64,000 nucleotides of DNA from Sphingobacterium sp. SGR-19 (lineage in GTDB: Bacteria; Bacteroidota; Bacteroidia; Sphingobacteriales; Sphingobacteriaceae), in the NCBI RefSeq assembly GCF_011043555.1, contig NZ_JAAKGS010000002.1, positions 744,001 through 808,000 on the forward strand, read 5' to 3'. The notes beneath the pieces were generated by a model. The model worked only from the letters and a program-made list of their open reading frames with translations. It was not told the origin of the DNA and made no database searches. The position numbers and the translations under genes were made by a program. Below are positions 5,949 through 34,114 of this stretch, piece after piece. Positions within the stretch are counted from its first letter, which is position 1. The number at the start of each line of letters is the position of its first letter.

Positions 5949-7838
5949 ATGTTTAGATTTTTGCTTTGGACATTTGTAGTGTGTTTGTTTGTCGTCTCAG
6001 TTTCGTGTGGAAGTAAGCAAAATACGGACAAATTAATCCCTATTGAAGATTTTTTCGTAAAACCAGAAAAGAGTAACTTCAAAATATCCCCAGATGGTCG
6101 TCGGATTGCTTATCTGGGAGTAGATGACCACTGTCGAAATATCTTTGTTTTGGATTTACAGGAGAAGAGCAAATCAAAACAACTTACGTATCAGTCGGAT
6201 ATGAATGTTCAGTATTTCTTCTGGGCTTCCGATTCTTTAATAGTATATTCCAATAGCCATTCACCACAAGACAGTCTGCGCATTTATAGCATTTTTGTCG
6301 ATTCTGAAAGAACTACACCATTATTGCCAGTTAAGAACGCACGATTACGTTGGTTGGCGCCACATACACTTCATGATAATTATTTGCTTGCCACCTTGAA
6401 CAACCGTGATTCAACTGTATTTGATTTGTATAAAATTTTTGTAGATGGCTCTGCTCCACAATTGCTAATACGTAATCCTGGCAATATCTCTAAATGGTTT
6501 GCTTCGCCAGACGGAAAAGTGAGATTGGCGATGACTAATGACAGCGTGCAAGAAAGCATCTTGTATAGAACCGATGAAAATATGCCTTTTCAGCAGATCG
6601 CCCATACAGATTATCAAACATCGATAAGACCTTTAGGATTTGTTAAGGATTCCCATACCCATATTTATGCCTTGTCTAACGAAAATAGGGATAGATTGTC
6701 GCTAGTAGAGTACAATGTTTCTACCGGAGAAGAAGAACGGTTAATATTTGAACACTCCGAGGTAGACCTTCAACCGGTCGGATATTCCGACCATTTGCAG
6801 GAGCTCATTTTTAGCCAGTATACTATTAATAAGGTAAAACAACATTTCTTTCATCAAACCTTTCAGCGACATTTCGACAAACTGTCTGCTAAATTTGGTA
6901 ACCAATCCATTGATATTTTGGACACTGACACAAGCATGCGTCATTGGATTGTTAAAGTTTATACCGATGTACATGCAGGCGGGATCTATCATTATAATGT
7001 ATTAGCCGATACAGCTATATTGCTGGAGGAAATGAATCCCAAATTATCAAGGGCAAACTTGTCTCCAAAAGAACCGGTTAGCTTTCAAAGTCGAGATGGT
7101 TTAACATTGCATGGCTATCTTACCTATCCATTGACCGGGAAACGGGAAACGTTGCCGGTGGTGGTGTTGGTACATGATGGGCCAAACCGTCGCGAAACAA
7201 GTGACTTTGATGCCGAAGTACAATTTTTAGCGAATAGAGGTTATCTGGTTTTCCAATTAAACTATCGAGGGTCGTCCGGTTATGGAAAAAAGTTTTGGGC
7301 CGCGGGTTTCAAAGAATGGGGAGGAAAGATACAAGCTGATATGATTGACGGCGTTACCTGGTTGATACATCAGGGAATCGTTGACAAAAATAGGGTAGCC
7401 ATCATGGGAAGTGGTTTTGGAGGCTATTCGGCTCTACATGCGGCTACCTATAACTCGTCCTTCTACAAGTGTGCTATCTCCATGTCGGGATACACGAATC
7501 TCTTTACATATTTTAGAGAGATACCACCTCACCATCAACAGTATGTTCGTTTATTTTACAATATCATAGGTAATCCGAGTAAGGAATATGAGCTGTTTAA
7601 AGCAATATCTCCTGTTTTTCATGCCGATAAAGTAAAGATTCCGGTGCTTTTTGCACAAGGCGGAAAAGATAGATTTAGTTCGCTGACGGATGCAAACCAA
7701 TTTGTACAAAAATTGAAAAACAATAACGTGCCGATTAAGTATATATATAGAGAAGAGGAGGGGCGACGATTTAGAAACGAAGAGAATATTATAAACTATT
7801 ATCAAGAAGTAGAGGCCTTTTTGAAGCAGTATCTATAA
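5949..7838 (+). CDS. S9-type peptidase-like lipoprotein lacking catalytic Ser and His
   Basis: A 629-residue protein with a lipoprotein signal (VVSVSCGSK, acylated Cys about 20), a beta-propeller-like N-terminal half (about 30-350) and an alpha/beta-hydrolase C-terminal domain (about 370-629) of prolyl-oligopeptidase type. The fold motifs are clear (NYRGSSGYG, W..GGKIQADM). However, the nucleophile motif that is GGSYGGY in active members is GSGFGGY here, so the Ser position is Gly489, with a Ser only at 488. The expected EGHGF His is EGRRF (Arg606). Asp574 (GKD) remains. Two of three catalytic residues are missing, so it is probably a non-hydrolytic periplasmic protein. It stands 5 bp before the histidine kinase gene and may be part of its sensory system. 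Confidence 0.85.
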   Translation: MFRFLLWTFVVCLFVVSVSCGSKQNTDKLIPIEDFFVKPEKSNFKISPDGRRIAYLGVDDHCRNIFVLDLQEKSKSKQLTYQSDMNVQYFFWASDSLIVYSNSHSPQDSLRIYSIFVDSERTTPLLPVKNARLRWLAPHTLHDNYLLATLNNRDSTVFDLYKIFVDGSAPQLLIRNPGNISKWFASPDGKVRLAMTNDSVQESILYRTDENMPFQQIAHTDYQTSIRPLGFVKDSHTHIYALSNENRDRLSLVEYNVSTGEEERLIFEHSEVDLQPVGYSDHLQELIFSQYTINKVKQHFFHQTFQRHFDKLSAKFGNQSIDILDTDTSMRHWIVKVYTDVHAGGIYHYNVLADTAILLEEMNPKLSRANLSPKEPVSFQSRDGLTLHGYLTYPLTGKRETLPVVVLVHDGPNRRETSDFDAEVQFLANRGYLVFQLNYRGSSGYGKKFWAAGFKEWGGKIQADMIDGVTWLIHQGIVDKNRVAIMGSGFGGYSALHAATYNSSFYKCAISMSGYTNLFTYFREIPPHHQQYVRLFYNIIGNPSKEYELFKAISPVFHADKVKIPVLFAQGGKDRFSSLTDANQFVQKLKNNNVPIKYIYREEEGRRFRNEENIINYYQEVEAFLKQYL

Positions 7839-14806: not shown

Positions 14807-14861
14807 TTCTTCATTTTTTTGTCTTGACACAAAAAAAGAGCTATTTTTTTTAATCAATTTT

Positions 14862-14977
14862 TTCATGTTCTTTTTCCCCGCGAAAAAGAACCAAAAAGCT
14901 CGTCGCTTCGGATGTTTGACAGGGAGGGAAAGTGCAAGAAAAGGGTTTCTACAGTTGTCAAAAATCCGGATGCGACA
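14862..14977 (+). repeat. Conserved two-hairpin intergenic repeat, copy A
   Basis: This 116-bp segment is about 85% identical to 33808-33922. Hairpin 1 pairs GTTCTTTTT with AAAAAGAAC (14867-14891). Hairpin 2 is a long interrupted stem: GTCGC/GCGAC (14902-14906 with 14972-14976), CGGAT/ATCCG (14909-14913 with 14964-14968) and TTTGACA/TGTCAAA (14915-14921 with 14956-14962). The two copies differ at the base of hairpin 1 by a compensatory G-C to C-G swap, which supports selection on structure. Confidence 0.8.
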
Positions 14978-15061
14978 ATTAAGGTTAAGGAAGGGATAGT
15001 GCACCCGCGTTGACATGAACGATCAATAATAAATAGCTACTGTGCGGATTAAAACGACCTT

Positions 15062-15174
15062 ATATCGTTCTACGGCCATTTTTATGAAGGCTATTCCGTT
15101 AAAAACAAAATTTGTTTGACCGAAGCGAGTTTATTTTGTTTAGGAATAGACAAAGAAAAATAGCAGAACGATAT
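15062..15174. repeat. 113-bp interrupted palindrome
   Basis: Three nested arm pairs lie in register: ATATCGTTCT/AGAACGATAT (15062-15071 with 15165-15174), CTATTCC/GGAATAG (15091-15097 with 15143-15149) and AAACAAAAT/ATTTTGTTT (15103-15111 with 15133-15141). A folded RNA or a cruciform/MITE-like element would explain it. No transposase is nearby. Confidence 0.6.
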
Positions 15175-15192
15175 TCAGTCTTGACTTTTTGT

Positions 15193-15218
15193 CTCCTTTT
15201 TTGTCAAGAAAAAAGGAG
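15193..15218 (-). terminator. Terminator-like hairpin downstream of the DUF3299 gene
   Basis: CTCCTTTTTT (15193-15202) and AAAAAAGGAG (15209-15218) form a perfect 10-bp stem with the 6-nt loop GTCAAG. It lies 33 bp past the minus-strand gene's stop and is symmetrical enough to act in either direction. Confidence 0.5.
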
Positions 15219-15250
15219 TAAAAGAAATTTGATTAAAGAAAACCTTCGTT

Positions 15251-25252: not shown

Positions 25253-26164
25253 ATGAAAAAGAACAGAAATTTCTTGGGCAATTATGTAGATATGTGTACC
25301 GACTTCGGCATGAAACTATATTTCGGCCCGGATGGTGGAAAACCAAATCTCATCAATTTTCTTAACGGTCTTTTTGATGGGGAGAAGATCATCAAAGATC
25401 TCGAATATCGTCCCGCCGAGCACAATGGTACGCAGGATAAGGATCGTAAGGTCGTCTTCGACCTCTACTGCACCAGTGCGGACAGTAGTCACTTTATCAT
25501 CGAAATGCAGCAGCTGTCGCAGGAGTTCTTTAAGGATAGAACGGTGTACTATACCTCTCGACTAATCAATAAGCTCGTTCCGCGTGGACACAAAGGTAAT
25601 ACATATGAATTGCCGGAAGTTTACTTCGTCGGTATACTAAACTTTGTTCTAGATCGATCGATACCTAATCAGTATTATTACGATGTGGCTTTGTGTGATC
25701 AGCAAAGCAAAAAAGTTTTTTATGACAAGCTAGGGTACAAGCTATTGGTCTTGGCTAATTTTAATAAGGAACAGTATGAAATTAAGAGCTATATGGATAT
25801 GTGGCTGTACCTGTTTAGGCATATGGAAGAGCTGGATGAAATGCCGAAGTTTTTGGATAATCGGGTATTTGGACTTATATTTGATATCGGAAAGGTAGCA
25901 AATTTAACGGAATCGGATATGAAATTATACGAGTCAAGTTTGAAGAACAAGCGGGATGCGGAAAGTGTCCGCCTTACCGCAATTAAGGAGGGGCGTCGAG
26001 AAGGTATGGAGGAAGGTATGGAGAAAGGTCGTCTGGTAGAACGTGCCAAAGCCGAGGCAGAAAAACTAAAATATGCGTTGAATTTAAAAAAGAGGGGGCT
26101 TCCATTAGAAGATATAGCCGAAGATTTAGGGCTTACTGTTGAGCAAGTCCAGAAACTGAAGTAG
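25253..26164 (+). CDS. Rpn-family recombination-promoting nuclease / putative transposase (PD-(D/E)XK)
   Basis: A 303-residue protein; the ATG at 25253 (MKKNRNFLGNYVD) is chosen over a TTG at 25226, which lies in the promoter box. The N-terminal half has the family's TDFGMKLYFGPDG...LINFLNGLF start, then the PD-(D/E)XK-like core Asp70 (KVVFDLYC) and Glu84 (FIIEMQQ). The C-terminal part is a charged coiled coil (KEGRREGMEEGMEKG) followed by a short helix-turn-helix-like end (EDIAEDLGLTVEQV). E. coli RpnA promotes RecA-independent recombination by DNA cleavage, and Rpn proteins have been linked to phage defence. It sits 80 bp from the 21-bp repeat array. Confidence 0.85.
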   Translation: MKKNRNFLGNYVDMCTDFGMKLYFGPDGGKPNLINFLNGLFDGEKIIKDLEYRPAEHNGTQDKDRKVVFDLYCTSADSSHFIIEMQQLSQEFFKDRTVYYTSRLINKLVPRGHKGNTYELPEVYFVGILNFVLDRSIPNQYYYDVALCDQQSKKVFYDKLGYKLLVLANFNKEQYEIKSYMDMWLYLFRHMEELDEMPKFLDNRVFGLIFDIGKVANLTESDMKLYESSLKNKRDAESVRLTAIKEGRREGMEEGMEKGRLVERAKAEAEKLKYALNLKKRGLPLEDIAEDLGLTVEQVQKLK

Positions 26165-33807: not shown

Positions 33808-33922
33808 TTCATCTTCTTTTTCTCCGCGAAAAAGAAGCAAAAAGCTCGTCGCTTCGGATCTTTGACAGAAAAGGAAGTGCTAAGGATGGATTTCTACAGT
33901 TGTCAAAAATCCGGATGCGACA
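33808..33922 (+). repeat. Conserved two-hairpin intergenic repeat, copy B
   Basis: Second copy of the repeat at 14862-14977, in the same orientation. Hairpin 1 (33813-33837) pairs CTTCTTTTT with AAAAAGAAG, the compensated version of copy A's GTTC...GAAC. Hairpin 2 has the same GTCGC/GCGAC, CGGAT/ATCCG and TTTGACA/TGTCAAA arms, with a loop that has drifted but keeps the ATTTCTACAGT end. It is in the 365-bp space between the divergent copper regulator and alpha/beta hydrolase genes. Confidence 0.8.
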
Positions 33923-33978
33923 TTGAATATTAAGGGGAGATTATGCGATTGTATTGTCTCATTCTTAACCTCTTAATG

Positions 33979-34089
33979 CCACATGTAAAATTTTGATGTC
34001 TGTAGAAATACCATTTTTGTACTGCCCTTTGTATCAAAATTTTTAAGTGGCGATTTTTTTTGCTTCTTTTTTTGAGGGAAAAAAAGAAG
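33979..34089. repeat. Interrupted palindrome and A/T hairpin beside repeat copy B
   Basis: CCAC..AAAATTTTGAT (33979-33997) pairs with ATCAAAATTTT..GTGG (34033-34050), an 11-bp stem extended by a 4-bp one. Just after, CTTCTTTTTTT and AAAAAAAGAAG (34063-34089) form a hairpin like hairpin 1 of the repeat. The same order, repeat then palindrome then A/T hairpin, is seen at 14.86-15.22 kb. The rest of the 365-bp gap has nothing recognisable. Confidence 0.6.
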
Positions 34090-34114
34090 AAGATAAACCT
34101 TATCTTTACCCCTT

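Follow-up and report, generated by a model that had tools for sequence, protein, structure and literature searches.

A non-coding, hairpin-forming interspersed repeat of Sphingobacteriaceae, probably a mosaic of the BIME/NIME-like kind

Introduction

The 64,000-nucleotide stretch of the Sphingobacterium sp. SGR-19 genome analysed here (the window) contains two similar intergenic sequences, A and B, each with two hairpins, which a first-pass annotation had proposed to be either an uncharacterised REP/MITE or a trans-acting RNA. To what kind of element do these copies belong, how does it change from site to site, and is it as DNA or as RNA that its hairpins are maintained? We propose that A and B probably belong to an interspersed mosaic repeat of the Sphingobacteriaceae, non-coding and hairpin-forming, which is similar to BIMEs and NIMEs and is rapidly turned over between species by deletion, conversion and recombination.

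Results

Layout of copies A and B

Both copies were found where the first-pass annotation had located them, copy A at 14862-14977 and copy B at about 33808-33925, in the same orientation and between genes. Their identity, given as about 85% over 115 bp, was 88% over 113 positions in a blastn search of the genome. The two hairpins attributed to both are borne out by the coordinates of an outer hairpin and a long stem in each copy, and the closing pair of hairpin 1 is indeed G-C in A and C-G in B. By contrast, the description of both copies as followed by a long palindrome and an A/T hairpin has to be corrected, since the sequel differs: copy A is continued by a second type of arm (15006-15225) and copy B by its own arm in inverted orientation (33978-34089). 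A and B fold better than dinucleotide shuffles on both strands, with z values from -3.5 to -4.9. The features of the two elements are as follows.

14814-14837, + strand: T/A hairpin TTTTTTTGTCTTGACACAAAAAAA, left edge of composite element A, also present at the orthologous site of S. micropteri
14867-14891, + strand: outer hairpin of copy A, GTTCTTTTTCCCCGCGAAAAAGAAC, with closing pair G-C
14902-14976, + strand: long stem-loop of copy A, in which 14902-14921 pairs with 14956-14976 around a TT/GAT internal loop; conserved loop at 14922-14955
14984-15003, + strand: conserved tail of copy A, GTTAAGGAAGGGATAGTGCA, which repeats the loop motif
15006-15225, + strand: arm of a second kind ("type 2"), attached to copy A and containing a palindrome (15091-15149) and an A/T hairpin (15193-15218)
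15231-15248, + strand: outer end segment GATTAAAGAAAACCTTCG, which in S. arenae stands inverted at the left edge
33813-33837, + strand: outer hairpin of copy B, CTTCTTTTTCTCCGCGAAAAAGAAG, with closing pair C-G
33848-33921, + strand: long stem-loop of copy B, in which 33848-33867 pairs with 33901-33921
33929-33970, no strand assigned: centre of mirror-image element B, where two tails meet as an imperfect palindrome
33978-34051, - strand: copy B', an arm in inverted orientation whose stem differs (GCCACATGTAAAATTTTGAT / ATCAAAATTTTTAAGTGGC), matched by the covariance model
34063-34089, - strand: outer hairpin of inverted arm B'
34101-34108, + strand: TATCTTTA, close in sequence to the Bacteroidota -7 box TAnnTTTG; it separates element B from an alpha/beta hydrolase gene and is kept in orthologues

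A family of 87 arms assembled from hairpin modules

Copy B gave 45 blastn matches in the SGR-19 genome, and 28 of these matched copies were used to build a covariance model (R1), which, run on the fetched loci, detected 87 arms at E<=1e-5. The genome thus holds far more than the two copies of the window, and a chance origin of the likeness between A and B is excluded. One arm comprises 148 positions with 27 pairs and consists, in order, of the outer hairpin (with a T-run and an A-run as its arms), an A-rich linker, the long stem, the loop and the tail. The long stem is formed by 17 pairs, five of them separated from the other 12 by the TT/GAT internal loop; the conserved loop of about 35 nt contains GGGATAGTACT...TTTCTACA, and the conserved tail reads GTTAAGGAGGGGATAGTGCAAT. 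The loop and the tail both contain the motif GGGATAGTGCA, and in mirror pairs the two tails make up a dyad.

Solo arms account for 39 of the 87, whereas 30 are joined to a type 2 arm and 18 make up 9 mirror-image pairs, in each of which the two arms have about 10 bp in common at the centre; copy A is of the joined kind and copy B is a mirror pair. The type 2 arm was matched 29 times by blastn in the genome; a profile detected 31 copies of it, of which 30 adjoin the tail of a type-1 arm. Small hairpin modules are nested in some arms. For one of them, M1, independent movement was rejected, as all of its 14 matches lie within arms, two of them degenerate. At site A of S. haloxyli (L150, ~6886-7127) and in other copies, we observed a hairpin module, CTATTCTCGATGCGGGAGAAGTGCGGGG...GGGACGCATCAAA, with AAA/TTT flanks and twice nested in one stem, which is possibly an insertion unit of its own. 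Modules are therefore found in variable order and orientation between genes, the trait of intergenic mosaics of the NIME/BIME-like kind. A candidate autonomous copy between opposed arms (C11:697765-701674) was also rejected, because gene distances place these arms in two separate elements.

Position relative to genes, and the case for terminators

According to simple ORF calls, an overlap of 60 nt with an ORF of >=150 aa was seen in four of the 87 arms, which extend into the end of a gene, and in none of the other 83; no arm is wholly contained in a long ORF, and no ORF above 141 aa holds a whole arm. The outer hairpin starts about 2-12 nt past the stop codon in 28 of the 38 arms that face a gene end. 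TAnnTTTG is the consensus of the Bacteroidota -7 promoter box; it lies between hairpin and start codon in 20 of the 35 arms facing a gene start, compared to 1.2 in shuffles. In the SGR-19 genome, elements whose arms face gene starts (e.g. L104 and L113) end just upstream of the -7 box, so that they would supply the -33 region of many genes. When scanned for sigma-70 promoters and terminators, copy A scored little above shuffles and copy B showed a few promoter-like matches. Since the elements reach up to a stop codon or a -7 box, they probably shape the expression of many genes.

Such positions could be explained if the elements were bidirectional intrinsic terminators and stabilisers of mRNA 3' ends under selection, a two-arm element then stopping transcription arriving from either side. 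In the outward direction, each arm presents a GC-based stem and then a U run, which counts at least 5 in 70 of the 87 arms but sits 2-4 nt after the stem and not directly adjoining it. The short distance from stop codon to outer hairpin agrees with this explanation, as does the strand symmetry of the pairing described below, which fits two-way use, but convergent gaps are not enriched (15 arms, versus 29 in divergent gaps) and at two orthologous sites (T4 and s155) the element is accompanied by a conventional terminator hairpin. Moreover, the pattern scan returned weak terminator matches only, and termination does not require the conserved loop. Selection as terminators is thus an unlikely explanation of the family; effects on termination or on promoters would plausibly be by-products.

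Turnover at orthologous sites

Ten intergenic sites occupied in the SGR-19 genome were compared across relatives. These orthologous sites vary by presence or absence (gain or loss), by inversion, by the swap of a whole stem-loop and by deletion scars. At site A, the element has one orientation in SGR-19 and S. haloxyli and the opposite one in S. micropteri, S. arenae and FBM7-1; the site is empty in S. chuzhouense, whose proteins are 92-93% identical to those of SGR-19 at two loci, and in S. phlebotomi, 2 bp separating the two stop codons. At sites B, T4 and D2, an element is present in every syntenic relative and the stems are different. At the T4 site of FBM7-1 (L268-L269, block ~25810-26060), tandem partial arms with a spacing of 104 bp adjoin a full arm. 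In S. corticibacterium (C4, L327-L346) and FBM7-1 (L256), the site B orthologue carries a small gene pair between the element and an AraC-type gene; read in S. corticibacterium, it looks by eye like a putative PIN-domain toxin with its antitoxin.

A FastTree tree places S. micropteri and S. corticibacterium as sister species. The site A element is present in the former and absent in the latter; the upstream 4.0 kb are 100% identical, and divergence begins at the element edge, 30 nt ahead of the stop codon. Judging from the alignment of this one case, the start of divergence is the edge of a homologous-recombination tract, with which gain or loss coincides. Over 360 kb of largely collinear sequence, comparison with S. 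micropteri revealed two deletion scars within elements of S. corticibacterium, one in which the outer hairpin alone remains, with breakpoints in A-runs, and another in which a scrap of the stem base is left. At site B, the two sister species have the stem base and the outer hairpin in common and differ in their upper stem-loops, which amounts to the swap of a whole stem-loop. Loss, inversion or swap accounts for the clean polymorphisms.

Search for a transposase

Y1 transposases (PF01797, a family that includes the RAYTs) were absent from the SGR-19 genome and from the eight other genomes with full-strength copies, although positive controls were detected. No RAYT/Y1 transposase of these genomes makes the new copies. 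We noticed no copy enclosing a transposase, the plasmids and phages searched yielded no element copy, and no target-site duplication was seen at pairs of occupied and empty sites, where the edges are eroded and some of the empty sites are deletion derivatives.

These results bear on the possibility that the elements are MITEs and that a transposase with its gene elsewhere moves them in trans, in which case it would recognise the stem base and the AGTGC loop. Their high copy number, inverted ends and patchy presence, together with a motif conserved across genera, are what such an origin would produce, but the empty sites without duplication, the lack of transposase-enclosing copies and of the Y1/RAYT family (PF01797 being the family searched), and the lack of matches in plasmids or phages make it improbable. 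As to terminal inverted repeats, a trait of MITEs, two-arm copies are inverted repeats whereas 39 of the 87 arms are single. The REP/MITE half of the initial proposal is upheld in part: the copies are many, intergenic, palindromic, dispersed and variable between species. They are not REPs in the strict sense, as they come without a Y1 transposase and without an unpaired GTAG or CGTC tag and have a far larger stem and loop, and they are not demonstrated MITEs, as neither target-site duplication nor autonomous partner was found in a transposase search that covered PF01797.

Membership of the GTAG REP/REPIN class was ruled out by the size of the arm (148 positions, 27 pairs) and the lack of both a GTAG tag and a RAYT, and that of the CGTC-tagged REPs by the pairing of GTC within the stem (columns 46-48 with 119-121), the 17 pairs and the loop of about 35 nt. 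Integron sites of the attC-like kind were considered on account of the bulged stem and set aside because the copies are single, dispersed and in both orientations. It is also distinctly unlikely that the family is a mobile DNA hairpin, spread through the Sphingobacteriaceae and outside the REP/RAYT, MITE and integron systems, whose stem base and AGTGC...TTTCTACA loop would be recognised by a non-HUH enzyme that copies or exchanges whole stem-loops between sites, as a system of transposition or conversion acting on folded DNA.

Spread among genomes

Matches at E<=1e-6 were obtained in 38 of 94 Sphingobacterium genomes, nine of which hold full-strength copies (the copy number of each genome is to be read as "at least"). 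Among 300 genomes sampled from the order, all matches beyond Sphingobacterium fall in three further genera of the same family, Sphingobacteriaceae. Distant copies, viewed in Sphingobacterium genomes with weaker matches and in two of the three further genera, retain the outer hairpin and the AAAAACTCGYCGC linker, as well as the motif AGTGC in the loop and GGCGACATTT on the closing side; their stem sequences are unrelated. One locus from another genus of the family (L302, 401-940) contains three near-identical arms in direct tandem with a spacing of 206 bp.

The loop motif AGTGC...TTTCTACA is more conserved across genera than a passive repeat would need, which counts against the mosaic-repeat reading and suggests recognition by some protein. 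A chromosomal architecture or partition-like protein might use the elements as binding sites, recognising their palindromic centre and loop motif. The recurrence of GGGATAGTGCA in loop and tail, the dyad of the tails in mirror pairs and the strand symmetry would suit such a role, but copies are freely lost between sister species and more than half of the genus Sphingobacterium has no detectable copy, so that we consider it very unlikely.

Covariation and strand symmetry of the pairing

In alignments (A3 and A4) which, like the model, were made from these same copies and fitted to the structure, the 87 arms contained 434 cells changed on both sides of a pair, compared to 125 +/- 10.5 in shuffles, counts that are inflated by non-independent cells because whole stem-loop modules are exchanged between copies. 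The covariation score was 0.498 compared to 0.164 in shuffles, and the signal was lost when partners were slid by one column. The arms thus change with compensation.

An RNA made from one strand should favour G.U over A.C. In about 1370 cells of the SGR-19 copies (stem base and upper stem without the last pair), 14 G.U and 17 A.C were counted, and the distant copies gave 10 G.U and 9 A.C. As G.U is no commoner than A.C in the long stem, pairing is kept equally on both strands, which points to a DNA structure or to the use of both strands and not to one trans-acting RNA. Selection for an RNA function exerted from both strands could also keep the stem paired. This comparison of G.U with A.C offers a simple way to separate pairing at the DNA level from pairing at the RNA level in repeats. 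The other initial proposal, a trans-acting structured RNA of a small-RNA family, is scarcely credible: strong folding of each strand and strong covariation speak for it, but G.U is no more frequent than A.C, no Rfam covariance model matched the window at its gathering score, many copies are inverted (mirror-image) pairs and every gene context is occupied.

Discussion

We return to the reading of A and B as copies of an interspersed mosaic repeat. The conserved property would then be the ability of the DNA to fold, as a hairpin or a cruciform. Folding combined with many similar copies would make the sites especially liable to slippage deletion between short repeats, to conversion from copy to copy and to inversion, and exchange between copies would keep the stems paired while their letters change. 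The element would be tolerated only in the gap that separates a stop codon from the core promoter after it, where it may secondarily terminate transcription or alter promoters.

With dozens of copies per genome, sites that differ between sister species and deletion scars, the family is a good natural system for studying the gain, loss and exchange of hairpin DNA. Its elements can also mislead the annotation of small RNAs and terminators in Sphingobacteriaceae. Searches of the open-access literature found no interspersed mosaic repeat family described for the Sphingobacteriaceae, so that the present one appears to be the first.

ERIC is an imperfect palindrome. Also called RU-1, it is an intergenic repeat of about 127 bp, MITE-like and present at many genomic places (PMC2759123). 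The element described here is likewise a long intergenic repeat in many places; unlike the single unit of about 127 bp of ERIC, with which it was compared by description, its arms combine, nest hairpin modules and swap stems. REPs measure 20-40 bp and have an unpaired GTAG and a RAYT (PMC3733652). The present elements resemble REPs and BIMEs in being palindromic, extragenic, often in opposed pairs and high in copy number, and differ from them by an arm of about 148 nt, by the lack of a GTAG tag and by the absence of Y1 transposases. CGTC-tagged REPs occur in several phyla including Bacteroidetes, without a dedicated transposase, and have an unpaired CGTC, stems of 8-9 bp, loops of 4-5 nt and a CCA tail (PMC3733652). 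Here too CGTC stands at the stem base, but it is almost wholly paired, within a stem of 17 pairs that bears a loop of about 35 nt.

NIMEs, which are composed of dRS3 and RS repeats, possibly promote the exchange of adjacent genes (PMC3898611). As in NIMEs, small inverted-repeat units form a mosaic in intergenic arrays, and the link of NIMEs to adjacent-gene exchange has a counterpart here, in a single case, in an element edge that falls at the edge of a recombination tract. The two differ in that the elements of Sphingobacteriaceae have another sequence and much larger stems, with no 20-bp dRS3 unit and no link to a phage integrase shown.
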